Source: an uncultured Pelagibacteraceae bacterium (GTDB taxonomy: Bacteria; Pseudomonadota; Alphaproteobacteria; Pelagibacterales; Pelagibacteraceae). From it: 64,000 bases of DNA. Below, one piece after another: positions 16,358 to 46,907 of the stretch. How positions within the stretch are numbered: the stretch's first letter is position 1; each line of letters opens with the position of its first letter. The position numbers were made by a program, and so were the translations under genes. The notes beneath the pieces were generated by a model that saw nothing but the letters and a program-made list of their open reading frames with translations, searched no databases and was not told the origin of the DNA. Where the stretch lies: assembly GCA_902558705.1 (NCBI GenBank), contig CACEEW010000001.1, positions 105,892-169,891 of the forward strand, written 5' to 3'.

Positions 16358-16377
16358 GGAAAGGTTAGGAGTCTGCT

Positions 16378-27899: not shown

Positions 27900-29033
27900 T
27901 TATTTTCTTCCTTTAGATAGCAGTTGTTTGTAAAGTTTAACATCTGCATTACCTTCGCATCCTATTACTAAAACATTAGATTTTTCGTTAAGTTCAATGA
28001 GTTTTTTAGTCTTAAAATTATTACAAACACCAATTAGGCTTATAATTCCAGGTGTTGAGCATTCTCCACCAATAATTGAATTTTTGCTTAGCTTTTTGTC
28101 TTTAAGCATAGCTAAAGTTTTGGCAACATTCCTATCACTTACAGATACACAACAATTGCATGCTTTTTTTAATATTTGCCAAGGAATATATGACATTTCA
28201 TTACATGACATACCGCCCATGATACTCTCTTTTTTAATCTTAATTTTTTTAAGTCTATTATTTTTAATGCTCTGAAGTACACAATCAGCTCTATCAGGCT
28301 CAACAATTATTATTTTTGGAATTCTTCTAAAATATTTAGCAACACCAGCAACAACACCAGCAGCCATGCCACCTACACCGGCTTGTAAAAAAATATGGGT
28401 TATATATTGATTAGTTTGTTTAGATATTTCTCTTATCATTATGGAATATCCTGCCATTGTAAGTTGAGGGACCAATTTATAATCTCTTGTAGCAACATCT
28501 TGCACAATTTTCCAATTATTTTTTTTTGATAACTTTTTACATTCATTAAGAGAGTTTTCATAATCTCCTTTAACTTTTATAACTTCAGCTCCAAATTTTT
28601 TAATTTCTTTAATTCTTGAATCACTTACGTATTGACTGACAAAGATTTTGCATTTTAGACCTAATCTTTTAGCTCCCCATGCAACAGATCTTCCATGGTT
28701 TCCAGCAGTTGCTGAGGAAATAATTATATTTTTTTTTCCTTTAGATATTCTTTCAACAGCATATGCGCCCCCTAATGCCTTAAAGGATTTTAAATGAAAT
28801 CTTTTGGATTCATCTTTATAAAAAACATTGTTAAGTTTTAAATTTTTTTGTAATTTATCAAGTTTAATTAGGGGTGTAGCCTTATAATTTTTCCAACTAG
28901 AAATTGATTTAAAAGCATTCGTTAATAACAAAGAAGGAACAAATTTTAAAACATAATTTCTTTTAAAACTGAAATTATTATTTTTTAAAGATTTTATAAG
29001 CGTCCAGTTTTTAATACTTTTTAAACTCTTCAC
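27900..29033 (-). CDS. PLP-dependent ammonia-lyase, diaminopropionate ammonia-lyase-like
   Basis: A 377-residue fold-type II PLP enzyme. The PLP Lys is in HLKSFKALGGAYAV, the phosphate/PLP contact motif is SATAGNHGRSVAWGA, and the Gly-rich loop is QAGVGGMAAGV. The segment GGMSCNEMSYIPW and the late GGECSTPG resemble diaminopropionate ammonia-lyase more than threonine dehydratase. It would release ammonia from a small amino acid with a beta leaving group. Its start is 1 nt from the gmaS stop, so it is probably co-transcribed with the methylamine genes. Whether the substrate is diaminopropionate, threonine or serine cannot be decided by eye. Confidence 0.75.
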   Translation of the reverse strand: MKSLKSIKNWTLIKSLKNNNFSFKRNYVLKFVPSLLLTNAFKSISSWKNYKATPLIKLDKLQKNLKLNNVFYKDESKRFHLKSFKALGGAYAVERISKGKKNIIISSATAGNHGRSVAWGAKRLGLKCKIFVSQYVSDSRIKEIKKFGAEVIKVKGDYENSLNECKKLSKKNNWKIVQDVATRDYKLVPQLTMAGYSIMIREISKQTNQYITHIFLQAGVGGMAAGVVAGVAKYFRRIPKIIIVEPDRADCVLQSIKNNRLKKIKIKKESIMGGMSCNEMSYIPWQILKKACNCCVSVSDRNVAKTLAMLKDKKLSKNSIIGGECSTPGIISLIGVCNNFKTKKLIELNEKSNVLVIGCEGNADVKLYKQLLSKGRK

Positions 29034-29034
29034 T

Positions 29035-30360
29035 TTAACAGTCTAAAGTATTTTGTCTTTCCCAGTGTGTTACAGGTTTGGACTTATCAAAGTTTTCTTT
29101 ATTATCAAATTCATTAATTTCAGATTTTCTCAGTTTTATATAACTATTAATTGTTTCTTTTCCAAAAGCTTCATTCATTTCCTTATTATTTTTTAAAAGT
29201 TCTAGCGAATCTTGAAGTTCATTTGGTAATTTAGGTAAATTAGGATATTTTTTGTAATCTGTGTACATATTACAAGTAAGAGGCTCACCTGGATCAATTT
29301 TATTTTTTAATCCATATAGCCCAGCAGCTAATACACTTGCTTGTAATAAATATGGATTTGCAGATCCATCCATCAATCTTAGTTCAAATCTACCAGGATC
29401 TGGAATTCTTATCATGTGTGTTCTATTATTGCCTGTATAAGATATGCTGCTAGGTGACCACGATGCCCCAGATTTTGTTGGAGGAGCATTAATTCTTCTA
29501 TAGCTATTAATTGTTGGATTAAAGAAAGCAGATAGGGATGAGGCATTTTTAATTACTCCACCTAAAAAATTGTAAGCCATTTTGCTAAGTCCAAGCTTGT
29601 CTGATTTATCTAAAAATTTATTTTTCTTTCCATCCCAAACAGATACGTGGGCATGACAACCATTACCTGTGAGGTTTTCAAATGGTTTAGGCATAAAAGT
29701 TGCTCTTAAACCATGTTTTTCAGCTATAGTTTTTACCATATACTTAAAAAAAGTATGTCTATCTGCCGTTTTTAGACAATTATCATAATCCCAATTCATC
29801 TCAAATTGACCATTAGCATCTTCATGATCGTTTTGATAAGGACCCCATCCCATTTCAATCATGCAATCACAAATCTCCTTAATTAAATCATATCTTCTCA
29901 TCAAAGCTGATTGGTCATAACAAGGTTTAGACTGGATATCTCTTAGATCAGCAATTGAATTTCCATCTGGTGAGATTAAAAAGTATTCACACTCTACACC
30001 TGATTTCATTGTTAGATTTTGTTTTTTTAATCTCTTAATTTGATTTTTCAGCATTATTCTTGGAGAGGCTTCTACAGGTTTACTGTTCATCCATAAATCA
30101 GATGCAAGCCACCCTACTTCTTTGTTCCAAGGCAATTGAATTAAACTATCTGGATCAGGAATACCAAACATATCGCTATCTGCGGGTGACATATCTAGCC
30201 AAGCTGCAAAACCAGCAAATCCTGCTCCTATAGTCTGCATTTCTTTAATAGCATGCGCTGGAACTAGTTTTGATCTGAGTACACCAAAAAGATCAACAAA
30301 GCTAATTAAGAAATATTTTATTTTTTTTTGCTTTGCTATTTTGAATAAGTTTTTAGCCAT
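29035..30360 (-). CDS. gmaS: Gamma-glutamylmethylamide synthetase (GmaS), type III glutamine-synthetase-like
   Basis: A 441-residue glutamine-synthetase homologue predicted to join methylamine and glutamate using ATP, the first step of the indirect N-methylglutamate pathway. The N-terminus (KYFLISFVDLFGVLRSKLVP, GFAGFAAWLDMSPAD) and NDHEDANGQFEMNWDYDN, HGLRATFMPKP and GNGCHAHVSVWDG match the GmaS type as I know it, more than ordinary GlnA. The window also holds N-methylglutamate synthase subunits, a Tdm and a sarcosine-oxidase-like tetramer, which supports the call. Glutamine synthetase on ammonium is the alternative. It is followed 1 nt later by the PLP lyase gene. Confidence 0.85.
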   Translation of the reverse strand: MAKNLFKIAKQKKIKYFLISFVDLFGVLRSKLVPAHAIKEMQTIGAGFAGFAAWLDMSPADSDMFGIPDPDSLIQLPWNKEVGWLASDLWMNSKPVEASPRIMLKNQIKRLKKQNLTMKSGVECEYFLISPDGNSIADLRDIQSKPCYDQSALMRRYDLIKEICDCMIEMGWGPYQNDHEDANGQFEMNWDYDNCLKTADRHTFFKYMVKTIAEKHGLRATFMPKPFENLTGNGCHAHVSVWDGKKNKFLDKSDKLGLSKMAYNFLGGVIKNASSLSAFFNPTINSYRRINAPPTKSGASWSPSSISYTGNNRTHMIRIPDPGRFELRLMDGSANPYLLQASVLAAGLYGLKNKIDPGEPLTCNMYTDYKKYPNLPKLPNELQDSLELLKNNKEMNEAFGKETINSYIKLRKSEINEFDNKENFDKSKPVTHWERQNTLDC

Positions 30361-30839: not shown

Positions 30840-32240
30840 TTACCTGGTTGCTGATGAAACTGCTTTTTCATCACTTTTAGCAGATTCCATCATTTCGTAG
30901 TCTAGTCCTGCTATCTCAACTTCTCGTGGGATTCTTAATTTACCCATGCCGTTAAGAACTTTAGCAATTATATATCCTGGTATAAGACCTAGAACTAAGA
31001 ACATTATTATTGCTCCTATAAATTGACCTAATGGATTAATTGTTGCGTAAGTTGATCCATCAAACATAGCTCCAACGCTATAACCAGATGCTGGATAACC
31101 GTTTAGAACAAAACCACATATTACAAGTCCAATAAAACCAGCATAACCATGTACAGCTACTGCTCCAACCGCATCATCGATTTTGAACTTTCGTTCAACC
31201 CAATAATGAAGTTTGTAGGAAATCACAACACCAATCATACCAATAATCAAAGCTTGAATTGGATGATATAAGTCATTTCCAGCCGATGCACATATTATAC
31301 CTGCTAGACCACTTGAGTAAGTCCAGAAAGGATCACCTTTTGCAATAACATATCCAGCCAACAATCCACCTGATAACGACATTAAGAAATTCATAGTTAT
31401 TCCACTTAATGTAGTAGGTGTTAAATAGATATTAGTTGCTGTCCAGAATGTTATTCCTTCCATACCATACTCAGGCCCAAGGTCATATATTGGAACATTA
31501 CAAGCTGCATAAAATCCCCAGAAACCAGTATAAATTAAAAATAATCCAATAGTAACTAGCCAAGGATTTCGTGGTCCTATATTTCTTGGTTCACCACTTG
31601 ATGAGAATTTTCCAATTCTTGGTCCCAGAACCATTAAAACACCTAGTGCAAATCCACCTGCTATTGCGTGAATTACACCTGACGCATAAGCATCATGATA
31701 TCCTAGAATTTTGAGCATCCATCCATCAAAGTGCCATCCCCAAGAAGCATCTATACTCCAGAAAACAGATCCAATCGCAATTGCTAAAATTCCAAATGCA
31801 AAAGTTGTTATTCTTTCAATGATTGCCCCAGAAACTATAGAAGCAGCTGTCCATGAAAATAATAAGAACGCTGCCCAGAAAACACCCATTATATGGTCGT
31901 TAAGATTAACCGCCATAAGAGCATTAGTTGGATTGGCGAGATCATTTCCTCCAAACCCCCCACTTAAAACTAGCCCTGTACTTTCCGTCATTATTGATGG
32001 AGCTATTCCTGGTCCTGTTGGAAAAGCCCAATAAATCCACCAACCAAATAAAAACCAAGTTACTGTTACCAATGGTATCAGCATTGTATTTTTCATAAGA
32101 GTATGTTGATGGTGTTTGTATCTTGATGCACCGACTTCATACATACAGAATCCGACGTGAATTAAAAACATCAGAACCACTGTTACCCAGTAGTAAAATT
32201 CTGTAAATATAGTAGTAAGAGCACCTAACTGATCAGTCAT
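30840..32240 (-). CDS. amtB: Ammonium transporter, AmtB/Amt family
   Basis: A 466-residue inner-membrane channel with about eleven helices. Amt-specific stretches include FGWWIYWAFPTG near residue 65, FLLFSWTAASIVSGAIIERI, VIHAIAGGFALGVLMVLGPRIG with the first conserved His, and GAVAVHGYAGFIGLVICG with the second. It imports ammonium, or possibly methylammonium, to the enzymes encoded around it. A short leader follows the mgs terminator. It is co-transcribed with a 76-residue membrane protein. There is no glnK beside it, so PII control is not visible here. Confidence 0.95.
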   Translation of the reverse strand: MTDQLGALTTIFTEFYYWVTVVLMFLIHVGFCMYEVGASRYKHHQHTLMKNTMLIPLVTVTWFLFGWWIYWAFPTGPGIAPSIMTESTGLVLSGGFGGNDLANPTNALMAVNLNDHIMGVFWAAFLLFSWTAASIVSGAIIERITTFAFGILAIAIGSVFWSIDASWGWHFDGWMLKILGYHDAYASGVIHAIAGGFALGVLMVLGPRIGKFSSSGEPRNIGPRNPWLVTIGLFLIYTGFWGFYAACNVPIYDLGPEYGMEGITFWTATNIYLTPTTLSGITMNFLMSLSGGLLAGYVIAKGDPFWTYSSGLAGIICASAGNDLYHPIQALIIGMIGVVISYKLHYWVERKFKIDDAVGAVAVHGYAGFIGLVICGFVLNGYPASGYSVGAMFDGSTYATINPLGQFIGAIIMFLVLGLIPGYIIAKVLNGMGKLRIPREVEIAGLDYEMMESAKSDEKAVSSATR

Positions 32241-32308: not shown

Positions 32309-32340
32309 AAAAAAACCTAATATAAACATCAGGTTTTTAA
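32309..32340 (-). terminator. Intrinsic terminator-like hairpin between amtB and the mgs operon
   Basis: AAAAACCT and AGGTTTTT pair around about 13 nt. Read on the minus strand it ends in seven T; it lies 26 nt after the stop of... no gene on the plus strand, and about 70 nt upstream of the amtB start at 32240, downstream of the unknown gene's stop at 32366. It should end the mgs transcript before amtB. The stem is A/T-rich with two G-C pairs only. Confidence 0.55.
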
Positions 32341-32365: not shown

Positions 32366-32782
32366 TTAGAATTTTAGATAAGCTTTTTTTAAATCTACGA
32401 GAGGATGTTTTGGAGACATTTGAAATTTAACCAATAACTCTCTAGCTATCATATCTCTATCCTGCTGATTTTCTGGTAATTTTATTGACTTTGGAATTGT
32501 AACCCAACCATTCGCATTTCTACAAAACACCGCAGGTTTTCCATCTTCATAACCCATGTGAACATCTTCTAACCAATTAAGATCATCCCAACCCATAGCT
32601 TCTACATATTTTTTTAAGAATGGTGTTATTTTTTTATAATCTGGAAGTAAGTTTACATCATATCTATAACCAATATGTTGGCCAATCAACTTTTCTCTAG
32701 CAGTTTCCTTAAAAGTACCAAGTTTCATTTTCTTTTCTTTTTTTGATTTACTTTTAATTTTTTTATTTTTTTTCTTGGGCAT
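32366..32782 (-). CDS. Unknown basic protein, last gene of the N-methylglutamate-synthase-type operon
   Basis: A 138-residue protein that I do not recognise. The first 18 residues are almost all Lys/Ser (KKKNKKIKSKSKK), then a compact domain follows with KLIGQHIGYRYDVNLLPDY, GWDDLNWLEDVHMGYEDGKP and NGWVTIPKSIKLP, rich in Trp and Asp. A shorter start at M19 (32728) is possible and would remove the basic tail. It lies 8 nt after the mgsC-type gene in the same direction, and just before the terminator, so it belongs to that operon. No membrane helix or metal motif is evident. Confidence 0.65.
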   Translation of the reverse strand: MPKKKNKKIKSKSKKEKKMKLGTFKETAREKLIGQHIGYRYDVNLLPDYKKITPFLKKYVEAMGWDDLNWLEDVHMGYEDGKPAVFCRNANGWVTIPKSIKLPENQQDRDMIARELLVKFQMSPKHPLVDLKKAYLKF

Positions 32783-32790
32783 AATTATCT

Positions 32791-34200
32791 TTATATTTTA
32801 TGATAGTTATCAACTCCAACAGTATAGTTTGTTCCTGCCAATGGTACTTTTGCTAAAGCAGAAGCTTCTGATGTTAATGCAGCTAAATCTTCTGGCTCTA
32901 AAGAGTGAATATTAGTTTTTCCACAAGCTCTAGCTAAAAGTTGTGCTTCTAAAGTCATAGAATGTAAATAATTATATACTCTTAAAGCTGCGTCGTCAGG
33001 ATTTAATCTTGCTCTTAATTTTGGATCTTGAGTAGCAACGCCTACTGGACATCTTCCTGTATGACAGTGGTAACATTCTCCAGCTTTTACTCCCATTTCT
33101 TTTTCAAAATTTGCTTCAGGAATATCTTTGTTACAATTTAATGCAATCATTGAACCAGTTCCGATTGCAATTGCGTCAGCACCTAATGCTAAAGCTTTTG
33201 CCATATCAGCACCATCTCTTACTCCACCAGCATAAATTAAAGTTACTTTTCCAGTTTTACCAACATCATCTAAAGCTCTTCTTGCTTCTCGGATAGCAGC
33301 TATTCCAGGAATACCAGTATTTGCTGCAGCTATATGGGGACCAGCACCAGTAGATCCTTCCATTCCATCTAAATAAATAGAATCAGGATCACACTTAGCC
33401 GCCATACGCACATCATCATAAACTTTTGAAGCACCAAGCTTTAATTGAATAGGCACTCTATTTTTAGTCAATTGTCTTAATTCTTCAACTTTTAAAGCCA
33501 GATCATCTGGACCTAACCAATCAGGATGTCTTGCTGGAGATCTTTGGTCAATACCAGAAGGTAATGATCTCATTTCAGCCACTTGGTCAGTAACTTTCTG
33601 ACCCATTAAATGTCCTCCCATTCCAACTTTTTGTCCTTGTCCGATAAATACTTCTATCCCATCTGCTAGTTGAGCGTGATGAGGGTTAAAGCCGTACCTT
33701 GATTGAATACATTGATAAAACCATTTTTCAGAATATCTTCTCTCATCAGGTATCATTCCACCTTCACCTGAACAAGTTGCACTTCCAGCCATTGTTGCTC
33801 CTCTAGCTAAAGCAGTTTTTGCTTCATAAGAAAGAGCACCAAAACTCATTCCAGTAATATATACAGGAATATCTAATTCAATCGGATTCTCACATCTTGG
33901 TCCAATTACAGTTTTAGTTTCACATTTTTCTCTATAACCCTCAATAACAAATCTAGTAAGTGTTCCAGGCAAGAAAACTAAATCATCAAAAGTTGGAATT
34001 TTTTTCATCAATGCCATACCACGCATTCTGTATCGTCCTAATTGTGCTTTAATATGAATGTCGTCTATAACTTCTGGAGTAAAAATAGCATTATGACCTA
34101 ATAAACTTTTATTTCTTTTTCCCTCTTCATGTGTATGGACATCAGCTTTTCCACCAACGCCTTTTCCATTAGATTTTTTTTTCTTTTTTCTTTTTGCCAT
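32791..34200 (-). CDS. mgsC: FMN/Fe-S glutamate-synthase-type subunit (N-methylglutamate synthase MgsC/GlxD type)
   Basis: A 469-residue protein homologous to the FMN-binding domain of glutamate synthase. TGMSFGALSYEAKTALARGA, KLGASKVYDDVRM, GSTGAGPHIAAANTGIP and GADAIAIGTG form the barrel and FMN site; CYHCHTGRCPVGVAT holds the three closely spaced Cys of the Fe-S cluster. In the N-methylglutamate pathway this subunit makes N-methylglutamate from the gmaS product and 2-oxoglutarate. It also matches GlxD of rhizobia. A Lys-rich N-terminus (AKRKKKKKSNG) is unusual. It shares 1 nt with the mgsB-type gene. Confidence 0.85.
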   Translation of the reverse strand: MAKRKKKKKSNGKGVGGKADVHTHEEGKRNKSLLGHNAIFTPEVIDDIHIKAQLGRYRMRGMALMKKIPTFDDLVFLPGTLTRFVIEGYREKCETKTVIGPRCENPIELDIPVYITGMSFGALSYEAKTALARGATMAGSATCSGEGGMIPDERRYSEKWFYQCIQSRYGFNPHHAQLADGIEVFIGQGQKVGMGGHLMGQKVTDQVAEMRSLPSGIDQRSPARHPDWLGPDDLALKVEELRQLTKNRVPIQLKLGASKVYDDVRMAAKCDPDSIYLDGMEGSTGAGPHIAAANTGIPGIAAIREARRALDDVGKTGKVTLIYAGGVRDGADMAKALALGADAIAIGTGSMIALNCNKDIPEANFEKEMGVKAGECYHCHTGRCPVGVATQDPKLRARLNPDDAALRVYNYLHSMTLEAQLLARACGKTNIHSLEPEDLAALTSEASALAKVPLAGTNYTVGVDNYHKI

Positions 34201-35054
34201 TAGATTGCTCCTTTTTTCTCAGTTGGTTCTAAATTGTCATAATTCCAAAGTTTTTTTCCAGCTACTATTTTTTTCATTTTACTTACATCAAAATTTTCGC
34301 CAATTTCAGCGACTTTTAATTTTCTCTTTAACCAATCTTGATCACTTTTTGTTAATTCTGAGTCTACAGCATCACTACCATAGGAGCCAATTTGTCCACC
34401 TATAAAAATTGTCCCATCATACATTGAATCACCTAAATTAATTCCTACATCTCCTAGTATTATAATCCTTCCTCTTTGCATCATAAATCCAGTGAATGCC
34501 CCGGCATCACCACCAATAATAATTGTTCCACCCTTCATATCTATTCCAGTTCTGGCACCGACACTTCCTTTACAAATTAAATCACCACCTCTGATTGCAG
34601 CTCCAAAACATGATCCTGCATTTTTTTCAATTACAACTTTTCCAGCCATTAAATTTTCTGCACATGACCATCCAACTCTTCCGTTAATTCTAACAATAGG
34701 TCCATCACACGATCCCATTCCAAAATAACCTAAACTTCCTTCGAAAATTAAATTTAATTTATTCAAAATACCAACACCTAAACTATGTTTTCCTTGTGGG
34801 TTTTTAATTACAATTGTTCCATAACCTTGACTCATTAAATTATCAATTTCTTTGTTGGCTTCAGCAGCTGTCATATCTTTAACATCGAGATCAGTTCTTT
34901 TATTAAAATCTACATCATAAGTACCAAAGTAATAAAAATTCTCTGCTTCATCTGGATTGAAGAACTTTTGTTGGGTTCTTCCTGTTAAAACTTCAGTATG
35001 CATACCCATAACTTGGGCTTTTGTTTTTTTCTCAGTACTTTTTAAATTTGCCAT
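34200..35054 (-). CDS. mgsB: Glutamate-synthase C-terminal-domain-type subunit (MgsB/GlxC type)
   Basis: A 284-residue protein built of the GXGXG-type right-handed beta helix that forms the last domain of glutamate synthase. Repeats such as GSLGYFGMGSCDGP, GSVGARTGIDMKGG and GDAGAFTGFMMQRG are visible in about residues 105-220. It has no catalytic residues of its own; it is a structural subunit next to the FMN subunit. It overlaps the amidotransferase subunit by 13 nt and shares 1 nt with mgsC. Confidence 0.85.
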   Translation of the reverse strand: MANLKSTEKKTKAQVMGMHTEVLTGRTQQKFFNPDEAENFYYFGTYDVDFNKRTDLDVKDMTAAEANKEIDNLMSQGYGTIVIKNPQGKHSLGVGILNKLNLIFEGSLGYFGMGSCDGPIVRINGRVGWSCAENLMAGKVVIEKNAGSCFGAAIRGGDLICKGSVGARTGIDMKGGTIIIGGDAGAFTGFMMQRGRIIILGDVGINLGDSMYDGTIFIGGQIGSYGSDAVDSELTKSDQDWLKRKLKVAEIGENFDVSKMKKIVAGKKLWNYDNLEPTEKKGAI

Positions 35055-35986
35055 ACTTTAACCTCACCATCAAAAGGATCATAAGTATCAATTTCTTGTG
35101 GTAAAATTGATCTTATAGCTATTTCTTCTGATCCCATTGCAACTAAATCGTCTGACTCGTATAATACTAATGGTTTAGCTGCCATAGTATCTTTTGCCAT
35201 ACCTAAAGAATTTTTTGTTGCCACAAAGTAAGTAAATACACCATCCAATCCTGTTAAAGACTCTTTCATTCCCTCTTCTAAAGAAGCTCCATCTCTCATT
35301 TTTTCTGCTAAATAAACTGCAATTAACTCAGAGTCACACTCAGACATAAATCTCATACCTTTATTTTCCAAAGATCTTCTGTTGTTCCAATAATTTGTGA
35401 GCTGACCATTATGAACCACAGAAACATCACTAAAAGGGTAGCCCCAAAAAGGGTGGGCAGACTTGATGTCAACTCCAGACTCGGTAGCCATTCTTGCATG
35501 ACCTATTGCATGTGTTCCCACTAATTTATCTAAATTATACCGATCACAAACCATTTTAGCATTTCCAAGATCTTTAATTACTTCTAAGGATTTGCCCATT
35601 GAAAGAATTTCTACACCAGGAATACTTTCAATTTTTTGTGAAAAATTTAATAAATCTTTTTTATCATATTCTATTTCATATCGCAACGAGTAGGGTAATA
35701 TTCTTTCTTCTTTAATTATTTTTGCTCCTAATTCTGAGAGATAACTATCAACAATTTTTTTTCTTTCATCATATACAGACACATCTTCAGCAACTGATGT
35801 ACTTCCTTCTCCAACATTTTCACCCACTTTAAATCTCATAATGAAATTTTTTCCATTTGTATCACCATACAAAGCGTAACCAGTAGAGTCTTCGCCTCTA
35901 TGTTTGAGTGCCTGTAACATTCCTTGAAGCTCATGACCAACTTTTGAAGATTTCCCTCTATGAATTAATCCCGCAATTCCGCACAT
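35042..35986 (-). CDS. mgsA: Class II glutamine amidotransferase subunit (MgsA/GlxB type)
   Basis: A 314-residue Ntn-type amidotransferase. The N-terminal Cys after Met (MCGIAGLIHRG) is the nucleophile; TGYALYG, IGHARMATESG and VVHNGQLTNYW are the glutaminase core. It should release ammonia, or in the methylamine version methylamine, from glutamine or gamma-glutamylmethylamide for the FMN subunit. It lies 20 nt after the glnT gene and overlaps the mgsB-type gene by 13 nt. Confidence 0.86.
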   Translation of the reverse strand: MCGIAGLIHRGKSSKVGHELQGMLQALKHRGEDSTGYALYGDTNGKNFIMRFKVGENVGEGSTSVAEDVSVYDERKKIVDSYLSELGAKIIKEERILPYSLRYEIEYDKKDLLNFSQKIESIPGVEILSMGKSLEVIKDLGNAKMVCDRYNLDKLVGTHAIGHARMATESGVDIKSAHPFWGYPFSDVSVVHNGQLTNYWNNRRSLENKGMRFMSECDSELIAVYLAEKMRDGASLEEGMKESLTGLDGVFTYFVATKNSLGMAKDTMAAKPLVLYESDDLVAMGSEEIAIRSILPQEIDTYDPFDGEVKVWQI

Positions 35987-36005: not shown

Positions 36006-37475
36006 TTATGGTAGACAATCAAGATAAGTATCTAGATCCCACTGAGTAGTTGCACCTAAAAATCTTTCCCATTCATCATTTTTATACCAATGGAAAACTT
36101 TATACATTTCATCAGGCATTGCAGATTTAATTACATCATCCTCTGCCAATCTTTCTAAAGCTTCACCTAAACTTAAAGGAAGTTTTTTTACGTCTTTTCC
36201 TGCCTTTTGAGCTTCATAAATATTTCTAGATTCTGGTGCCGCTGGTTTCATTTTTTTTGTAATACCTTCGTCACACGCTTTTAATAAAGCGGCCCCTAAT
36301 AAATATGGATTATGCATTGAGTCTACAGATCTATATTCAAATCTTCCTGGAGCTGAAACTCTTAAACCGCAAGTTCTGTTTTGATATCCCCAATCTGCAT
36401 AAACTGGAGCCCAAAAACCTTGATCCCATAATCTTCTGTAAGAATTTACAGTCGATGAACCTAAAGCTGTTAAAGCTGGTAAATGTTTCATAATCCCTGC
36501 GATAGATTGTAAACCTATCTTACCTGGTAATTGCATATCATTAGTATCAGGCATAAAAGTATTTGTCCCACCCTCAACATAACCAAAAACCTCTTCAACT
36601 CCTGGTAATTTTTTGTGTCCAAGTTTATTTGTTTTAATTTTTCCACCTTTCCATAAAGACATATTCGTATGACATCCACTGGCTGAAACTCCCATAAAAG
36701 GTTTGGTCATAAAACAGGCAATTAAACCGTGTTCTCTTGCGACTTGAGCACATATTTGTCTATAAGTTGAAAGTCTGTCTGCATTTCTTAAAACATTATC
36801 ATATGTCCAGTTAAGTTCTAATTGACCGGGCGCATCTTCATGGTCACCTTGAATCATATCTAATCCCATTGCTTTTGCATATTCTATTACTTTCATAAAG
36901 ACTGGTCTTAATGACTCAAATTGATCTATGTGATAACAAAATGGTTTTGAAAACCCTTTTCCTGTTGGAGTACCATCTTCATTTTTAGTAAGCCACATCA
37001 TTTCTGGTTCTGTTCCAACTCTTAATTCAAGACCATGTTTTTTTTGAAATTCATCCATGAAAATTCTTAAATTACCTCTGCAATCAGATGTTAAGTGACC
37101 CCCAGGATTTTTTCTTTCTTCTCTATTTCTAAAACAAGTTACAAAAACTCTCCCAACTCTTTTGTCCCATGGTAATTGACAAAATGTTTCTGGATCTGGA
37201 ATACCTACTAGCTCCATAGCCTCTGGGCCATATCCAATATAATTATTATGACGATCTAAGAATAAATTAGCTGTAGCTCCATAAACTAGTTGGAAACCTT
37301 TTTCAGCAGTTCTTTCCCAATGATCAGCTGGAATTCCCTTACCAACAACTCTTCCTGTTACAGAAATAAATTGGTAATAAATGTATGTTATTCCTAATTC
37401 ATTAATTTTTTCTCTTACATTTTTTACTAATTTGGCTCTGCCAGGTTGATTAACATGTTTTTCTAAATCAGTCAT
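36006..37475 (-). CDS. glnT: Type III glutamine synthetase-like protein (GlnT type)
   Basis: A 489-residue glutamine-synthetase homologue, distinct from the GmaS-like protein encoded at 29035. The N-terminus (YIYYQFISVTGRVVGKGIP), LELRVGTEPEMMW, MIQGDHEDAPGQLELNWTYDN and FMGVSASGCHTNMSLW are the ATP and substrate regions; CGLRVSAPGRFEYRSVD comes later. The first gene of the glnT-mgsABC-unknown operon, with an AGGAGA ribosome site. The neighbourhood suggests glutamine or gamma-glutamyl-amide formation for the synthase downstream. Which amine it uses cannot be seen. Confidence 0.85.
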   Translation of the reverse strand: MTDLEKHVNQPGRAKLVKNVREKINELGITYIYYQFISVTGRVVGKGIPADHWERTAEKGFQLVYGATANLFLDRHNNYIGYGPEAMELVGIPDPETFCQLPWDKRVGRVFVTCFRNREERKNPGGHLTSDCRGNLRIFMDEFQKKHGLELRVGTEPEMMWLTKNEDGTPTGKGFSKPFCYHIDQFESLRPVFMKVIEYAKAMGLDMIQGDHEDAPGQLELNWTYDNVLRNADRLSTYRQICAQVAREHGLIACFMTKPFMGVSASGCHTNMSLWKGGKIKTNKLGHKKLPGVEEVFGYVEGGTNTFMPDTNDMQLPGKIGLQSIAGIMKHLPALTALGSSTVNSYRRLWDQGFWAPVYADWGYQNRTCGLRVSAPGRFEYRSVDSMHNPYLLGAALLKACDEGITKKMKPAAPESRNIYEAQKAGKDVKKLPLSLGEALERLAEDDVIKSAMPDEMYKVFHWYKNDEWERFLGATTQWDLDTYLDCLP

Positions 37476-37542: not shown

Positions 37543-38868
37543 CTAGCTCCAAGGAAATGGACTGTTCGAAGTAGGGTGTAGCTCACCCTTCTCGTATCGG
37601 TTGAATCTAAATGGTTTCAATAAATCACTTTCTTGACCTAAAATTTCTTTTGCAACAAGTTCACCAACACCAATCATTTTATAACCATGATTAGCATCAG
37701 CAATCATATAAACATTTTCTAAAAATCTATCAAAGATTGGAAATGAGTCTGGTGTCATACACCCAAGTCCACCCGAAGGACCTTTTCTATATAAATGAGA
37801 TTTACCTTCAAATCTTTTTTGACAATGAGCTAAAGCCGAACACCACATTTCATTAAATGACTCTGTGGTTTGATACTCTGGAGATTTTACTCCATAAGGA
37901 TCAACATTAACTTTATCGAAATGTTTATCAACTATGTAAGGAGATGTTCCTCCTTGAACACCTAATCCCTCGATATCAGGTTTATAATAAATTCCCCAAA
38001 TTTTTTCTGTAATTAATTTTTTTGTAGTATCAGAATATAAAGGAGCTGTTGAGTCAACATGCACCACAGGTGGTTGTTTACCATCATTTGTTTTTAAAAA
38101 ATCAGGCTCTACTCCTATAATTCCTTCTTGTAGCATCCAGTATTTCCACATATCAGTTTCATGAAATCTTCCATCCTCATCTTTAATCCAAGCTGTTTTT
38201 GGAAGCTCTAACATGTTCCAAAAATCTCTAACCCAAGGACCTGCACCAACAACTATTTGTTCACAGTCTATTGTTCCTTTATCAGTTTCAACCCCTGTTA
38301 CAGCTTTACTATTGCTACCTCTTTTAAATCCAGTAACTTTAACACCCTTAATAACATTAACTCCATTCGTCACTGATTTTTTTTCAAGAGCTTTAATTGA
38401 ATCCTTATTAAATGCATAACCACCTTTTTTTTCATGAAGAACAGATGTTATTCCTTTTGCCTGCCAATCATCAAACATCCCCTTCATATAGTTCATACAA
38501 TCTTTCTCACCTTCTATAAATTCTGACTCGTAACCGATAGCTTTTTGTTGTTCATATATAGAAGCAACATCTTTATGCATTACTTCAGGAGATATCTGAA
38601 GGTATCCTACTGCATTATATTTCCATGCTTTTGGGTCACTTTCCCAAACCGAAACTGAATGAGCCATAAGCTCTCTCATTGCAGGCTGAAAGTAATTATT
38701 TCTTACTACTCCACAAGCAATTCCACTTGCTCCAGCAGCAGTATCATCTTTTTCCAAAACAATTATTTCATCAGGATTTTTATATGTCTCTGAAAGTTTC
38801 CAAGCAGTGCTTAATCCATGAATTCCTCCACCAATTATTACTACTTTTGCTTTTGTCGGTAATGACAT
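37543..38868 (-). CDS. FAD-dependent oxidoreductase, DAO/sarcosine-oxidase-like
   Basis: A 441-residue flavoprotein of the D-amino-acid-oxidase fold. The FAD-binding motif is VVIIGGGIHGLSTAWKL at residues 9-25, with EKDDTAAGASGIACG and IVVGAGPWVRDFW further on, and GGLGCMTPDSFPIFD near the C-terminus. Such enzymes oxidise N-methyl groups of amines and amino acids, or the amine itself. It lies between Tdm/MarR-like genes and the glnT-mgs operon in the same direction, so a methylated-amine substrate such as dimethylamine, dimethylglycine or N-methylglutamate is plausible. No folate domain is present, so the released C1 unit would be free formaldehyde. Not certain. Confidence 0.82.
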   Translation of the reverse strand: MSLPTKAKVVIIGGGIHGLSTAWKLSETYKNPDEIIVLEKDDTAAGASGIACGVVRNNYFQPAMRELMAHSVSVWESDPKAWKYNAVGYLQISPEVMHKDVASIYEQQKAIGYESEFIEGEKDCMNYMKGMFDDWQAKGITSVLHEKKGGYAFNKDSIKALEKKSVTNGVNVIKGVKVTGFKRGSNSKAVTGVETDKGTIDCEQIVVGAGPWVRDFWNMLELPKTAWIKDEDGRFHETDMWKYWMLQEGIIGVEPDFLKTNDGKQPPVVHVDSTAPLYSDTTKKLITEKIWGIYYKPDIEGLGVQGGTSPYIVDKHFDKVNVDPYGVKSPEYQTTESFNEMWCSALAHCQKRFEGKSHLYRKGPSGGLGCMTPDSFPIFDRFLENVYMIADANHGYKMIGVGELVAKEILGQESDLLKPFRFNRYEKGELHPTSNSPFPWS

Positions 38869-38958: not shown

Positions 38959-39309
38959 TTAGAAACTGAGATTTTTTAATGTTTGGATATATAAATTAAA
39001 TTCATCAATAAAAGATTTGCTTGGCCTTATGAATTTTTTTCGTTGATCATTTGATCCTTTTTCAAGAAAAAAGAAGCCTTTTTCACAAGCTTCATTAATC
39101 ATTAATGCTGACTTTGGCCTAGATGTTTTAAATAGTTTTGTCTTAAGCTCTTCAACAGTCAAATGCTCTTTATATTTAAATGCATGCATAACCAACAACA
39201 TCATATGATAATGAGATGGAGATTTTCTAAAAAAATAATTACTAGACATATGGGAAAGTTTCATTTGATCCTCCCAAAATTCTAATAAATCTTTAGTTGT
39301 TTTTGCCAT
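38959..39309 (-). CDS. MarR-like winged-helix protein
   Basis: A 116-residue predicted DNA-binding protein. The helical N-terminus leads to a winged-helix core, HLTVEELKTKLFKTSRPKSA with the recognition helix, then a wing-like segment ending GSNDQRKKFIRPS, close to the MarR 'DxR' wing. It is short for MarR (usually 140-150). It shares one base with the tdm stop, so it is translationally coupled, and may regulate tdm or the downstream oxidoreductase. The ligand is unknown. Confidence 0.6.
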   Translation of the reverse strand: MAKTTKDLLEFWEDQMKLSHMSSNYFFRKSPSHYHMMLLVMHAFKYKEHLTVEELKTKLFKTSRPKSALMINEACEKGFFFLEKGSNDQRKKFIRPSKSFIDEFNLYIQTLKNLSF

Positions 39310-41645
39310 TAGGATTTTACTCTAGTCTTTTTAGGGTCGAAATGAGGGAAAGCTACTACTTTGGCAGAAATTCTTTTTTGATGACCATCAATTTTACCAA
39401 CTTCAACTTCAGTGCCCTCACTTGAGTATTGAGTATCGATTCTACATAAAGCTATATTCTTATTTAAAGTTGTAGATAAACAGCCACTTGTTATTACACC
39501 TACTTGAGATCTACCAACATGTACACAATCACCATGTCCAGATGCCTCTTTACCAATAAGCTCAAGACCTACAAGTTTTTTTTGAGGATTTATCTTTCTC
39601 TCTTTCAGAACTTCTTTGCCAATAAAATCCTCTTCCTTTGTTTTTAATGGAACAGCAAAACCTATCCCAGCCTCAAATGGATCCTGTTGACCATCAAATT
39701 CATTACCAAATAAAATTAAACCTGCTTCAATTCTTAATTTATCTAAAGCGGCAAATCCTGCTGGTATTAGACCATCATCTTTTCCAGCTACCATTAGTTT
39801 ATCCCAAACTTCAGGAGCATGTTTTGGATGACACCATATTTCATAACCAAGTTCACCAGTATATCCTGTTCTTGATACAATTAATGGAATACCTTGAAGT
39901 TCTTCGACTCTACAAACAGTAAATCTAAACCATTCTAATTCATCAATAGAAGGTTGGGTAGGTGGAGTAAAAATTATTTTTTTTAATATTTCTCTGCTTT
40001 TTGGTCCTTGAATGGAAACATTACTTATCTGATCTGTAGAATTTTTTATACTTACTTTATAATTTTTCTTTTTTGCAATTTCTTTTAACCATTCTCCTGA
40101 ATATTCATCACCACATATCCATCTGAAACCAGTTTCACTTAATCTTAATAAAGTACCATCATCAAACATCATTCCATTTTCATAACACATAGCAGAGTAA
40201 ACAACTTTACCAACTGAAAGTTTTTTTATGTTTCTTGTCAGCGTATAATTCATTAATTCCTCAGCATCGGGTCCAATGATTTCGAATTTTCTTAATGATG
40301 AAAGATCAATTAAAACAGCCTTCTCTCGACACGCAGTATATTCTTCAACTAAACCATGTTTAGTGTAATCATTTGGTAACCAAAATCCCCTAGTATCAAT
40401 AAAGTTTCGAGTTAATTTTGAAGTTCTATCGTGAAAACCAGAATTTCTAGTGAGTTTTTTTTCTGAGTCTGTTTTCATTCTAAAGGCAAACGATTTGGAA
40501 AATTCTTTTTTTTTGTCATATGTTCTAACAAAGATATCAGTTGGATTCCATGAATTGCAAGGATCAATATCACTAGGACATGCTGTGGTTCCGATTGTTA
40601 AATCTTTTAACGCTTTAAACATTACATAATCTCCAGGTCTAGCGTAAGATTCATCGGAAATTACGGAATTAAGACCTGTAGAAGAGGTGTTAAAAAATAA
40701 GTTTATCGCATGCCAACCTTTTTGCTTTTGAACTCCATATTTACTCATTGAGTTTGTTAAATTGTCAGAGCAATTAGGATGGCCGAAGTAACCTACATCT
40801 TCATAATATTTAGAAGTGCAAGCTAAATTAAAAGTATCATGTTTACCAACAGTATCTCTAATAACTTCGACAAGTGGCTCATGATCAGTGTCATAGAATT
40901 TAGAAAATAATCCTGGACCTGGAAAAGTATTACCCATAAATGTTCTGGTAGTCTGCCAATCAAGTCCTTTTTCAATACCTTTATCAAGTTTTTTAGTATC
41001 AAATGCAACAAAGTCTGAACATTGCCTGCCTGCTGGACTAATTACCTGAATGTAATCACCTTCTTTAACTTGATATGAAATACATGTTTGTCTATTTATA
41101 TTTTTTTCGTAATTAGGCTCAAAAACAGGGTCAGGGATAATAGACAATTCTTTGTCCTTAGTAATTTTTGCACGTTTTATAAATATTGTTAAATCACCTG
41201 AAGGATTTTGATCACTAATCAACATTTCATTTTTAGGTGCTGAAAAAATTACATAACATTTGTCTTTTGATTTTAATTTTACTTTCTCACCACTAGGTGT
41301 ATCTTTATCAAAAATAATTGATGATTTAGAATTATTGATATTTAAATTTCTTTTTTTTAATTGAAGTTTAGTTATTAGAGAACTTTCATCATTATTATTT
41401 AATATCTCTTTAATAAAACTTTTTTTAATATTTTCTTTTAAACTTAATATTCCTAATTCAGATTTACCATTTTTATCAAAGCAAATTATTTCACAAATTT
41501 GATCTCCTTCTTCATTAATAATTTCTATTTGATCATCAGGAAAAATTTGCAAACCTGTTAATCCTCCCATATTGACAGTGTGTCTTTCAACTCCAGGTGG
41601 CAACACGTTTAGTCCAGGTTCTTTAATATCTAAAGTAGTAGGCAT
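39309..41645 (-). CDS. tdm: Trimethylamine N-oxide demethylase (Tdm), DUF1989 + GcvT domains
   Basis: A 778-residue two-domain enzyme predicted to split trimethylamine N-oxide into dimethylamine and formaldehyde, with the folate domain able to take the one-carbon unit. The N-terminal half (about 190-370) is the DUF1989 metal-binding domain: YQVKEGDYIQVISPAGRQCSDF, HPNCSDNLT. The C-terminal half (about 410-770) is GcvT-like: ACREKAVLIDLSSLRKFEI, NVSIQGPKSREIL and SRTGYTGELGYEIW. This architecture is that of Tdm as described in methylotrophs and SAR11. The flavin monooxygenase Tmm is not in the window. The gene diverges from the betaine-binding protein gene. Confidence 0.85.
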   Translation of the reverse strand: MPTTLDIKEPGLNVLPPGVERHTVNMGGLTGLQIFPDDQIEIINEEGDQICEIICFDKNGKSELGILSLKENIKKSFIKEILNNNDESSLITKLQLKKRNLNINNSKSSIIFDKDTPSGEKVKLKSKDKCYVIFSAPKNEMLISDQNPSGDLTIFIKRAKITKDKELSIIPDPVFEPNYEKNINRQTCISYQVKEGDYIQVISPAGRQCSDFVAFDTKKLDKGIEKGLDWQTTRTFMGNTFPGPGLFSKFYDTDHEPLVEVIRDTVGKHDTFNLACTSKYYEDVGYFGHPNCSDNLTNSMSKYGVQKQKGWHAINLFFNTSSTGLNSVISDESYARPGDYVMFKALKDLTIGTTACPSDIDPCNSWNPTDIFVRTYDKKKEFSKSFAFRMKTDSEKKLTRNSGFHDRTSKLTRNFIDTRGFWLPNDYTKHGLVEEYTACREKAVLIDLSSLRKFEIIGPDAEELMNYTLTRNIKKLSVGKVVYSAMCYENGMMFDDGTLLRLSETGFRWICGDEYSGEWLKEIAKKKNYKVSIKNSTDQISNVSIQGPKSREILKKIIFTPPTQPSIDELEWFRFTVCRVEELQGIPLIVSRTGYTGELGYEIWCHPKHAPEVWDKLMVAGKDDGLIPAGFAALDKLRIEAGLILFGNEFDGQQDPFEAGIGFAVPLKTKEEDFIGKEVLKERKINPQKKLVGLELIGKEASGHGDCVHVGRSQVGVITSGCLSTTLNKNIALCRIDTQYSSEGTEVEVGKIDGHQKRISAKVVAFPHFDPKKTRVKS

Positions 41646-41746: not shown

Positions 41747-42712
41747 ATGAAAAACAAACTACCGTTAATTATCGGTGCGATTGTTGTCATAGCGGGTCTT
41801 GCTTTCTTCATGGGTGGAGGAGACAAATCTGCAAAAAAATCAGGCAGCGACAGTGCTGAGCCTATAGTTATTGCAACTCATAACTGGTCAAGCCAAGTGG
41901 TTATGGCTCATGTTATTGGGGGAATTTTAGAATCTATGGGCAACAATGTAAAATATGTACCAGCAGATTCACAAGCTGTTTACGAGTCAATTAGAATTGG
42001 TGATGTAACATTAGCCCACGAGGTTTGGGAATCCGCTTTTGGTAAATCTTTTGATACAGCTAGAGAAAAGGGTGGTGTATTAGACTGGGGTGATCATGAA
42101 GCAAGAACAATTGAGGATATGGGTTATCCTGATTGGGCGGCTAAATATTGTCCAGGCTTACCAGATTGGAATGCTTTAAAAAGTCCAGACTGTGCTAAAG
42201 CGTTTGCTACACCAGACTCTGGTGGAAAAGGACGTATGTTAGAAGGTCCACAAAGCTGGCATGGAGATCTAATCCCTCAGAGAATAGAAGCTCTTGGATT
42301 GGGTGACTTATGGACTGTTAAGTTTGCCGGTGGTGCAGATGCATTATGGGCAGAACTTAAAGCAGCTGAAGCTGAAGGAAGAGGAACTATTATCTTTAAC
42401 TGGACACCAAACTTTACAGATGGAAAAGGATTTACTTTTATTGATTTTCCACCGTACTATGATGGTTGCAGACCAGTTGATGGTGGTGATGGTAAATGTG
42501 GAGCTCCGGACGGTTACTTGAAAAAAGCCGTTAATGAGAATTTCCCAAAAACTCATCCTAATGCAGCAGCAATGTACAAAAAATTATCATTTAACACTAG
42601 TCAAATTGGAGCAATGGCTGCTTTAGTTGACGAAGATAAAATGACTCACGAAGATGCTGCTAAAAAATGGTTAGCTGATAACAAAAGTGTTTGGGAGAAG
42701 TGGACTAAGTAA
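41747..42712 (+). CDS. opuAC: Glycine-betaine-type substrate-binding protein (OpuAC/ProX family)
   Basis: A 321-residue periplasmic binding protein for quaternary ammonium osmolytes. An uncleaved or signal-type hydrophobic helix (about 5-22) precedes a Gly/Ser/Lys linker, then the mature domain ATHNWSSQVVMAHVIGGILESMG. Trp/Tyr-rich segments typical of the betaine-binding aromatic cage appear in HEVWESAFG, GPQSWHGD and FNWTPNFTDGKGF. It has a strong promoter and AGGAGG, and a terminator follows, so it is probably expressed at a higher level than the permease. The ATPase and permease genes are 1 kb downstream, after two unrelated-looking genes. Confidence 0.9.
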   Translation: MKNKLPLIIGAIVVIAGLAFFMGGGDKSAKKSGSDSAEPIVIATHNWSSQVVMAHVIGGILESMGNNVKYVPADSQAVYESIRIGDVTLAHEVWESAFGKSFDTAREKGGVLDWGDHEARTIEDMGYPDWAAKYCPGLPDWNALKSPDCAKAFATPDSGGKGRMLEGPQSWHGDLIPQRIEALGLGDLWTVKFAGGADALWAELKAAEAEGRGTIIFNWTPNFTDGKGFTFIDFPPYYDGCRPVDGGDGKCGAPDGYLKKAVNENFPKTHPNAAAMYKKLSFNTSQIGAMAALVDEDKMTHEDAAKKWLADNKSVWEKWTK

Positions 42713-43739: not shown

Positions 43740-44777
43740 ATGACAACAACACCTGTAATTAAATGTGAGTCTGTCTATAAAATATTTGGAGCGAATGCAG
43801 AAAAAATGCTTCAAAATTCAAATGGTAATGTAGATGCAAAAATATTTCAAGATGCAGGTTGTATTGTTGGGGTTAACAATGCTTCTTTTGAAGTATCAAA
43901 AGGGGAAATGTTAGTTGTAATGGGTTTATCTGGTTCTGGTAAATCAACTCTACTAAGATGTATTTCACGATTAACTGATGCTACAGGTGGAAAAATTTTT
44001 ATCGAGGGTCAAGACTTGTTAGCAATGAATGATAAGCAATTAATTGAGTTAAGAAGAAGTAAAATGGGTATGGTTTTTCAAAGTTTTGCATTACTTCCTC
44101 ATAAAACTGTTTTAGAAAATATTGCGTTTCCACTTCAAATTAAAGGAGGTGAAACTGACGACAGTATTAAAAAAGCTATGGAGATGGTTGAATTAGTAGG
44201 TTTAAAGGGAAGAGAAAATTATTTTCCTAGAGAATTATCTGGAGGTCAACAACAGAGAGTTGGTATTGCACGATCATTAGCTGTTGAACCAGATATATGG
44301 TTTTTAGACGAACCTTTTTCTGCATTGGATCCACTTATAAGAAAAGAGATGCAAGATGAATTTTTAAGACTCCAAGGGGTTTTAAATAAAACAATTCTTT
44401 TTATTACACATGACTTTGATGAAGCGCTAAGACTTGCTGATAGAATAGCTATTATGAAAGATGGTTTAATTGAACAACTGGATACTCCAGCAAATATTGT
44501 TTTGAATCCAAAAACTGAATATGTGAGAAAATTTACAGAAGAAGTGCCAAGAGAAAAAGTATTAAAGATAGAAGCAATAATGGATAAATCTATAAATGAA
44601 AAAGATAATAAAATGATTAGTGTTTCTAAAGATGCAATTATTGAAACAGTAGCAGAAAAAATATTGAGTCAAGAAAACTCAGTAAACGTTTTAGATGCAA
44701 ACAATAATATAGTTGGAAGTGTTAAACCATCAAAGATAATTCAAACAGTTTTTAGAACTGGAAAAGAAAAGTCGTAA
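43740..44777 (+). CDS. proV: Glycine-betaine-type ABC transporter ATP-binding protein (ProV/OpuAA)
   Basis: A 345-residue ATPase. Walker A GLSGSGKST, Q-loop FQSFALLP, signature LSGGQQQR, Walker B IWFLDEP and switch His FITHDFDEAL are present. The C-terminal about 85 residues (SVSKDAIIETVAEKILSQ..., NVLDANNNIVGSVKP) look like a CBS-type regulatory segment, shorter than the two-CBS tail of E. coli ProV. It starts 46 nt after an unknown membrane protein and 6 nt before the permease gene. Confidence 0.92.
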   Translation: MTTTPVIKCESVYKIFGANAEKMLQNSNGNVDAKIFQDAGCIVGVNNASFEVSKGEMLVVMGLSGSGKSTLLRCISRLTDATGGKIFIEGQDLLAMNDKQLIELRRSKMGMVFQSFALLPHKTVLENIAFPLQIKGGETDDSIKKAMEMVELVGLKGRENYFPRELSGGQQQRVGIARSLAVEPDIWFLDEPFSALDPLIRKEMQDEFLRLQGVLNKTILFITHDFDEALRLADRIAIMKDGLIEQLDTPANIVLNPKTEYVRKFTEEVPREKVLKIEAIMDKSINEKDNKMISVSKDAIIETVAEKILSQENSVNVLDANNNIVGSVKPSKIIQTVFRTGKEKS

Positions 44778-44783
44778 TATTCT

Positions 44784-46907
44784 ATGGAAATAATTAAGAA
44801 ATATCCAAAAGCTATCCAATGGATCTTTTTATTTATTATTTTTTTTGGTTTATGTTTTGCCATTCAAATACCAGAGGGGTATGAGTTTGCAAAAGCTGGA
44901 ACCGAATTTATTGATAAAGATAAGTTAGACCAAACTAAGTACAGTGTTTTTTGGAGATTGCCGGCCTTTATTGCTTGGATGCCAGGATGGATAAATGACT
45001 CTGTATACTTTTTATTAAATGAGTGGTTTCCAATTGAATACTTTGACTCCAGTATTCAAGAGACAAAATCTAGACCATTGGTTCTACATATAACAAGATT
45101 AATTTCTAGTTCTATGCTTTTTTTAATCCAATTTATTCGTGAAATTTTAATTGGTGGAGTTGATACTATAGTTGCTTTTACAAGTTGGGATTTTTTAAGT
45201 GCAAATCCTTGGGCAAAGTTACCAGGTTTACCTTGGACAATTGTTGCTGGTGGAGCAGTCTTACTAGGTTACAAACTTAGTGGAAAAAATTTAGCAATAT
45301 TTGCAGCGATAACCATGATATTCATTTCTGCTTTCGGCCAATGGAAGCCATCTATGCAAACTTTATCATTTGTATTGGTTGCAGCACCAATTTCTTTTGC
45401 TTTAGGTCTTGGTTTTGGAGTTTGGGCATATAGAAGCAAAAGAGTAGAAAATATTTTAAATCCTCTTTTGAATGTTGCTCAAACCATGCCTCATTATTCA
45501 TATCTTGTACCAATAATGGTTTTATTTGGAATAGGTGATCATGCTGGAGCAATAGCAACAATTATTTTTGCAACACCTCCAATGGTTAGACTAACTTTAC
45601 TTGGTCTAAGAAAAGTATCTCCTGAAGTTATTGAAGCAGGTAAGATGAGCGGCTGTACAGATTATCAATTGTTATCTGAAGTTTTAATTCCAACTGCAAG
45701 AAGAGATATTTTAATAGGTGTCAATCAAGTTATAATGCAATGTTTAGCAATGGCTGTAATAGCCTCGTTTATAGGAGCAAAAGGTCTGGGATGGAATTTG
45801 CTACTTGCATTAAATCAATTAAGAATTGGTTTGGCACTTGAGGCGGGTGTGTGTATTACTTTGATAGCAGTTTTATTGGATAAACTGTCATTAGCATGGG
45901 CAAATAAACAAAAAAACTATTTTGAAAATCCAACAGATTTTGAGAAAAATAAGTATCTTTATATATTTGGTGGAGTTGTTATTGCTGGATATATACTTTC
46001 TTTTATAGGGACCTTCCTTTTTAAAGAAGGTTTTAACTATTTTTTTATTGTTCCGCACAATAAAGGTATTTCTACTGAGGCATTCTGGAATGCAGGAGTA
46101 GATTGGGTTTTAGCTAATTTTTTTGATACACTCAAAATTTTCAATACTTGGCTAATAGTAGATGTCTTAATTCCTATGAAAAATGCATTTTTGAGAATGC
46201 CAATTGTTGCTACATTTATTTTATTTATGGGTGCAGGTTATATAATTGGAGGTATTAGATCTGCATTAGTTATTGGAAGCTTTACTTTGTTTATAGCTTT
46301 AACAGAATGGTGGGACAGAGCGTTAATAACAATGTACATGGCAACTTTTGGTGTTTTAGTTTCAGGAATTCTTGGAATAACAATTGGTACTTTAAGTGCT
46401 CAAAATAAAACTAGCTCAAGAATAGCTATAGGTGTGTGTGACACTCTCCAAACTTTCCCATCTTTTGTTTATTTAATTCCAGTTATAATGCTCTTTGGAG
46501 TAACAGATACATCTGTTCTAATTGCTGTTGTAGTTTATGCAACGATTCCTGCAACAAGATACACTATTGAAGGGCTAAGAAGTGTACCTTCTGCTTTACA
46601 TGATGCTGGATCTATGTCTGGAGTAACTCGATTACAAAGATGGATAAAAATAGAATTACCACTTGCGTTTCCACATATGATGTTAGGAATTAATCAAACA
46701 GTCGTATTTGCATTATTTATGGTAATCATTGGTGCAATGATTGGAACAACAGATTTAGGACAGTATATTCTAAAAGCTTTATCTGACAGGCAAGGAACTG
46801 GTAATGGCTTAATGTTAGGATTATGCGTTGCTTTTATAGGCTTAGCTGTTGATAATTTAATTAGAACTTGGGCGGATCAAAGAAAAAAACTTCTAGGAAT
46901 TGAATAG
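44784..46907 (+). CDS. proW: Double-length glycine-betaine-type permease (ProW-ProW fusion)
   Basis: A 707-residue inner-membrane protein containing two copies of the ProW-type permease domain. The first EAA-type loop is RKVSPEVIEAGKMSGCTDYQLLSEVLIP, the second is RSVPSALHDAGSMSGVTRLQRWIKIELP; both carry the helical coupling sequence and a downstream GxNQ motif (LIGVNQVIMQ, MLGINQTVVF). Ordinary ProW is about 300-350 residues with one domain, acting as a dimer, so this chain would form both halves of the channel itself. It follows proV by 6 nt. Transports glycine betaine and probably related osmolytes. Confidence 0.92.
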   Translation: MEIIKKYPKAIQWIFLFIIFFGLCFAIQIPEGYEFAKAGTEFIDKDKLDQTKYSVFWRLPAFIAWMPGWINDSVYFLLNEWFPIEYFDSSIQETKSRPLVLHITRLISSSMLFLIQFIREILIGGVDTIVAFTSWDFLSANPWAKLPGLPWTIVAGGAVLLGYKLSGKNLAIFAAITMIFISAFGQWKPSMQTLSFVLVAAPISFALGLGFGVWAYRSKRVENILNPLLNVAQTMPHYSYLVPIMVLFGIGDHAGAIATIIFATPPMVRLTLLGLRKVSPEVIEAGKMSGCTDYQLLSEVLIPTARRDILIGVNQVIMQCLAMAVIASFIGAKGLGWNLLLALNQLRIGLALEAGVCITLIAVLLDKLSLAWANKQKNYFENPTDFEKNKYLYIFGGVVIAGYILSFIGTFLFKEGFNYFFIVPHNKGISTEAFWNAGVDWVLANFFDTLKIFNTWLIVDVLIPMKNAFLRMPIVATFILFMGAGYIIGGIRSALVIGSFTLFIALTEWWDRALITMYMATFGVLVSGILGITIGTLSAQNKTSSRIAIGVCDTLQTFPSFVYLIPVIMLFGVTDTSVLIAVVVYATIPATRYTIEGLRSVPSALHDAGSMSGVTRLQRWIKIELPLAFPHMMLGINQTVVFALFMVIIGAMIGTTDLGQYILKALSDRQGTGNGLMLGLCVAFIGLAVDNLIRTWADQRKKLLGIE

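Follow-up and report, generated by a model that had tools for sequence, protein, structure and literature searches.

A small conserved protein coupled to a second type of N-methylglutamate-synthase-like complex is its probable fourth subunit in SAR11

The 64,000-nucleotide stretch of DNA analyzed here (the window), from contig CACEEW010000001.1 of an uncultured Pelagibacteraceae bacterium, carries on its minus strand, in this order, a tdm-like gene, a small possible regulator, DAO, GSx, mgsA', mgsB', mgsC', a short gene that we call U, a hairpin, amt, gmaS/glnT and a diaminopropionate-lyase-like gene. The tdm gene (39309–41645) encodes a full-length TMAO demethylase-like protein with DUF1989 and GcvT domains (1080 bits against NF053776, cut-off 1100) and is overlapped by a gene for a 116-residue protein (38959–39309) that has no family match, looks winged-helix-like by eye, is kept in SAR11 tdm operons and is a possible regulator of the TMAO cluster. 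DAO (37543–38868) encodes a single-chain FAD amine oxidoreductase, a relative of the beta subunit of sarcosine oxidase (Pfam DAO, 3e-32; 2gag_B, 1e-14), and GSx (36006–37475) a divergent glutamine-synthetase-like ligase (Pfam Gln-synt_C). They are followed by the three genes of what we refer to as the type I synthase: mgsA' (35042–35986), encoding a class II glutamine amidotransferase subunit with a Met-Cys start (Pfam GATase_6/7); mgsB' (34200–35054), encoding a GXGXG beta-helix subunit (Pfam GXGXG, 2e-14); and mgsC' (32791–34200), encoding a 469-residue FMN/Fe-S subunit with a glutamate-synthase domain (Pfam Glu_synthase, 2e-89). U (32366–32782) is the final gene before the terminator-like hairpin (32311–32338, minus strand), an AU-rich stem of 12 bp with a U-rich 3' arm (−10.1 kcal/mol, z −4.2) that a strict scan for G+C-rich terminators did not list; a search of the intergenic stretch between U and amt for Rfam families gave none, leaving the hairpin as its only feature. 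Beyond it lie amt (30840–32240), of the ammonium transporter family, and a gamma-glutamylmethylamide synthetase orthologue (gmaS/glnT, 29035–30360; 612 bits against TIGR03105 and 560 bits against the solved GmaS 7cql). The diaminopropionate ammonia-lyase-like gene (27900–29033, minus strand) regularly follows gmaS in SAR11 loci. On the plus strand, diverging from the operon, are genes for a tmoX-like substrate-binding protein (41747–42712, Pfam OpuAC) and the tmoW and tmoV-like ABC transporter genes assigned from sequence (43740–46907); the plus strand also carries soxBDAG-type genes (51633–56739) that are candidates for an N-methylglutamate dehydrogenase or a sarcosine oxidase (TIGR01373, 671 bits; TIGR01372, 1315 bits; both above cut-off).

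Among the genome contigs compared, those nearest to the window come from Pelagibacterales single-cell genomes, which identifies it as DNA of a SAR11 (Pelagibacter-type) genome. The same gene order is found in HTCC1062, where SAR11_1302 is annotated as opuAC, 1303 as an aminomethyltransferase and 1304 as a "monomeric sarcosine oxidase" (PMC3160333), SAR11_1305 as "glnT" (PMC5069961), and SAR11_1309 as a hypothetical protein adjoining amt (1310) across a 125-nt intergenic stretch, as in the window (PMC2704228); 1313–1315 are glxBCD and 1316 is glnT. By position, judged from this gene order and not from the HTCC1062 sequence, DAO corresponds to SAR11_1304, GSx to SAR11_1305 and U to SAR11_1309. 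SAR11_1305 and SAR11_1302 (tmoX) both belong to the few genes that fall at least four-fold in stationary phase under sulfur limitation (0.19 and 0.22, respectively; PMC5069961).

A preliminary description of this DNA had placed a 138-residue reading frame 8 nt behind mgsC as the last gene of its operon, which our analysis bears out, adding the strand that it had omitted: the frame lies on the minus strand, opens with ATG and starts 8 nt from the end of mgsC' at 32791, and the plus strand across the same interval contains nine stops. The choice of start codon, left there as a point to check, is settled by the homologues, which begin MAKKK or MPKKK at the same site and do not keep the internal Met19, so that the first ATG is the right start. 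The polybasic "tail" attached to a compact domain was half correct, in that the Lys-rich stretch is real but N-terminal (residues 2–19) and not conserved: it is 50% K+R in the window versus 6–16% in most homologues, whose N termini differ in both length and charge, and we therefore rejected it as a functional signal. The FMN subunit does have the Lys-rich start that had been noted alongside, but this too is a SAR11 feature. What is conserved in U is a core of 113 residues (26–138) with about 70–80% identity across Alphaproteobacteria and near-invariant blocks IGQxIGYRYDxNLxP, DLNWLED and NQQDRDM; it contains no conserved Cys, no Cys cluster and no known cofactor motif. Sequence and profile searches with the family against Pfam, NCBIfam and PDB gave no family match, the sole weak PDB match, a Toxoplasma protein (9ya3, E 0.025), having the look of chance. 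An AlphaFold model computed from an alignment of narrow SAR11 sequences was poor (pLDDT 56), and a fold search with it returned no match (best E 0.3).

The distribution of U is sharply defined. In an even set of 385 Alphaproteobacteria genomes, MgsC homologues fall into two sets, one with 76–100% identity to the window protein (38 genomes, type I) and one with 49–55% (about 50 genomes, classical), with no identities between 55 and 75% and with more distant glutamate-synthase relatives below the classical set. U occurs in 37 of the 385 genomes at 68–100% identity, far beyond chance, and all 37 belong to the 38 type I genomes; it is found in 0 of the remaining 347. In the lone exception, G233, the contig breaks off 108 bp from mgsC. 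Wherever U genomes were fetched as loci, U lies directly behind type I mgsC (30/30). Among 36 relatives from the window's genus, U is present in 19, which are also the ones that carry type I mgsC (a coupling of 19/19 versus 0/18), and two genomes whose only mgsC is classical lack U; a separate collection of further SAR11 loci contains the U–MgsC' pair in 80/80. Conservation of the gene next to mgsC, which had been proposed as a check, thus holds for the type I branch (37/38, 19/19 and 80/80), and a search for homologues independent of the synthase found none away from that branch. A U profile at E≤10 detected no U-like frame in 26 classical, glx or other loci, and U was found neither in plasmids and phages nor in a 339-genome sample of the phylum outside Alphaproteobacteria. 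One contig filed as viral (L217, IMGVR_UViG_3300006306_000019, 5001–5333) holds a U homologue of 91% identity, which may be host contamination or an auxiliary gene. Apparent fusions of U to MgsC were discarded, as long open frames in GC-rich genomes mimic a fusion and a stop always lies between the two. In L166 and L170, where DAO has changed place or GmaS replaces GSx, U still follows mgsC'. Comparative genomics therefore shows that U and type I MgsC are neighbours in every genome where both could be seen, and that U is never paired with classical MgsABC or GlxBCD.

The synthase to which U is coupled is not the classical enzyme that the preliminary description took it for. Type I has the same three-part architecture, with amidotransferase, GXGXG and Glu_synthase domains all present, the same gene order and a partner ligase of the glutamine synthetase family, as do MgsABC of Methyloversatilis, Methylobacterium and Paracoccus and rhizobial GlxBCD, but identity to these is only 49–55% for MgsC and 30–41% for MgsA and MgsB, the ligase is GSx rather than GlnT/GmaS, the MgsB' N terminus is longer (an extension of about 50 residues, absent from classical MgsB/GlxC in the alignment), and there is a fourth gene, U. 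In a tree of MgsC, type I and classical proteins separate with long inner branches (support 86/94 and 91/88), type I standing on its own branch apart from MgsC/GlxD of known loci; since proteins had been assigned to the two types by their identity to the window protein, the tree tests that assignment without being wholly independent of it. All 21 type I MgsA' proteins start with MCG. In Paracoccus, Ruegeria, Methylobacterium and Rhizobium, classical loci combine mgsABC or glxBCD with glnT/gmaS, often near dmm or sox/mgd, and have no U, in line with the earlier remark that no such subunit is known from described mgsABC systems. Transferred to P. putida, mgsABC of M. extorquens yields N-methylglutamate with no fourth gene (PMC6237917). 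A third mgsABC-like type, with MgsC 41–43% identical and no U, occurs in L167 (genome G139; 13688–16485 in U-oriented coordinates), L209 and L210, and in L167 it lies just downstream of the type I module.

The partner enzymes set the module apart as well. GSx had been read as the operon's glnT, but it reaches only 295 bits against TIGR03105 (cut-off 470) and 158 bits against 7cql, as against 560 bits for the window's true GmaS, encoded at 29035–30360. GSx is present in 37 of 38 module genomes and 0 of 17 others, and type I loci carry it in place of GlnT/GmaS in 37/38, the exception being G289. GSx and GmaS have the fold family and most of the amine site in common: of the seven amine-site residues (Tyr147, Tyr174, Gln175, Asp177, Glu179, Glu186 and Asn188; site from PMC7948447), the window's GmaS has all and GSx keeps six, with Tyr174 replaced by Ile in 20/20. 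Dimethylamine is a poor substrate of RhGmaS (its tabulated Km is 16.07 x 10^3 versus 58 for ethylamine, methylamine being lowest; PMC7948447), suggesting that ligation is possible chemistry needing a better-fitted enzyme such as GSx. We propose that GSx is a gamma-glutamyl-amide synthetase for the module's own amine. A gamma-glutamylputrescine route was rejected, the score of GSx being lower there than to type III GS, and work on SAR11 polyamines found no complete gamma-glutamylation pathway (PMC8437039). Second GSx paralogues of 53–62% identity are present elsewhere in five module genomes (G223, G321, G398, G225 and G349). DAO is 52–62% identical in other module loci and usually paired with mgsA'B'C'U. 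Type I is accordingly its own module of DAO, GSx, MgsA'B'C' and U, which in SAR11 is embedded in the gene cluster of the TMAO pathway, usually with tdm on one side and amt-gmaS on the other and sometimes beside classical mgsABC.

What U does within this module can be narrowed by its rate of change. Mean pairwise distances are 0.17 for MgsC', 0.24 for U, 0.27 for GSx, 0.33 for MgsA' and 0.34 for both MgsB' and DAO, and the slow evolution of U is consistent with a subunit that packs onto a conserved partner; correlations of pairwise distances among the module proteins gave no clear winner and did not single out MgsC' as the partner of U. The earlier suggestion of a fourth subunit or assembly factor survives the co-occurrence analysis, its two halves unequally. 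A factor for assembly or maturation, acting for example in Fe-S cluster insertion or subunit joining and not retained in the finished enzyme, would suit a small protein that is encoded directly behind mgsC' and has no catalytic motif, all the more as the C-x2-C-x4-C motif of MgsC is present in 21/21 type I proteins and only 12/25 classical ones. However, the classical relatives that carry the motif have no U, U has no conserved Cys, and it evolves nearly as slowly as catalytic MgsC' and more slowly than MgsA' and MgsB', which makes an assembly factor quite unlikely, and less likely than a constitutive subunit. We infer that U is probably a constitutive subunit, the fourth, of a second kind of N-methylglutamate-synthase-like complex (MgsA'B'C'U) that had not been told apart before. 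Since it lacks a Cys cluster and known cofactor motifs, we propose a structural role in which U would do no chemistry and would most likely hold the MgsC'/MgsB' interface or shape the amine channel.

Tdm converts TMAO to dimethylamine, and in Roseobacters Dmm converts dimethylamine to methylamine. SAR11 is without dmmDABC (PMC5520151), and HTCC1062 grows with TMAO as sole nitrogen source, for which an unknown isoenzyme has been proposed (PMC8918994). Scoring full-length Tdm at over 1000 bits and strong Dmm as PF11927 matches over 150 bits, we found full-length Tdm in 34 of the 385 genomes, 27 of them among the 38 module genomes and seven among the 347 others. Strong Dmm was detected in none of the 38 module genomes, the 27 with both Tdm and module included, compared with five of the seven Tdm genomes without the module and 13 of the 32 genomes with only the classical synthase. 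Related genomes are not independent in such genome-level counts, and the signal is weaker at the family level, where Dmm is present in 0/13 Tdm-carrying families with the module versus 4/5 without it (p = 0.0016). Two Tdm genomes, G395 and G319, have neither the module nor strong Dmm. Weak partial PF11927 matches of 51–59 bits occur in G090, G397 and G319, members of one genus that otherwise carries Tdm and may possess a divergent dimethylamine demethylase. We propose that the module, which has no sequence relation to DmmABC(D), stands in for it at the step that follows Tdm and precedes the methylamine enzymes, and it is their mutual exclusion that makes dimethylamine the leading substrate candidate.

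The position of the module points the same way. Both synthases stand side by side in several SAR11 loci, in the order tdm-reg-DAO-GSx-mgsA'B'C'-U-amt-mgsABC-gmaS, which places the type I module between the TMAO and methylamine steps. We consider it unlikely that the module handles some other secondary or N-methylated amine and that its link to Tdm merely reflects habitat: full-length Tdm is indeed absent from 11 of the 38 module genomes, yet in SAR11 tdm heads the module directly, in several other families it is close by (L163, L166, L177 and L178), and the exclusion with Dmm also speaks against this reading. A somewhat more serious, though still doubtful, alternative is that type I is another N-methylglutamate synthase for monomethylamine with U as an extra subunit, the SAR11 dimethylamine step being done by something else. 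Most SAR11 loci contain gmaS with no classical mgsABC close by, so that type I would have to serve gmaS there, and in G289, which has no GSx, a GmaS-type ligase takes the place of GSx ahead of mgsA'B'C'U, close to a soxB/soxA pair, which suggests that the type I synthase can serve monomethylamine. This locus (L170, 4659–10045), with its soxB/soxA-like genes downstream, amounts to a natural swap of parts. Where SAR11 clusters hold both synthases, however, and likewise in G090, G397 and G236, the classical mgsABC keeps company with gmaS and type I with GSx and DAO, and the mutual exclusion of module and Dmm also counts against this alternative. The dimethylamine reading, in which the module probably carries out the missing SAR11 step, is the one we prefer, and the module is the best genomic candidate for it among the genes considered here.

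From the protein families, a course of reaction can be sketched. GSx would use ATP to couple the amine to the gamma-carboxyl group of glutamate; MgsA', as an N-terminal-Cys amidotransferase, would free the amine again, which would travel via MgsB' to MgsC' and, at the FMN site of this subunit, be built onto the alpha-carbon of the glutamate skeleton to give an N-alkylated glutamate; and DAO would take off one alkyl group as formaldehyde or methylene-THF. For dimethylamine, the substrate that we infer, the sequence would run from N,N-dimethylglutamate to N-methylglutamate by DAO and on to glutamate by the soxBDAG/Mgd enzyme. We tentatively suggest, as a possibility that goes further than subunit status, that the six-gene module DAO-GSx-mgsA'B'C'-U could constitute the pathway by which SAR11 and further marine Alphaproteobacteria process dimethylamine, an oxygenase-free route in which dimethylamine is gamma-glutamylated, a four-subunit synthase makes N,N-dimethylglutamate and a flavin-dependent step demethylates this to N-methylglutamate.

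Two different enzyme types share the annotation "N-methylglutamate synthase", and U, whose gene was previously undescribed as encoding a subunit, is an obligate partner of the distinct type and not of the known MgsABC. A protein family previously without a function thereby gains a likely one. SAR11 are the most abundant bacteria of the ocean, and the module sits where the known dimethylamine enzyme is lacking. Previous work leaves open how SAR11 passes dimethylamine (PMC5520151, PMC8918994); with the module directly after tdm there, the question may now be put to six named genes, which by position in HTCC1062 are SAR11_1304 to SAR11_1309.
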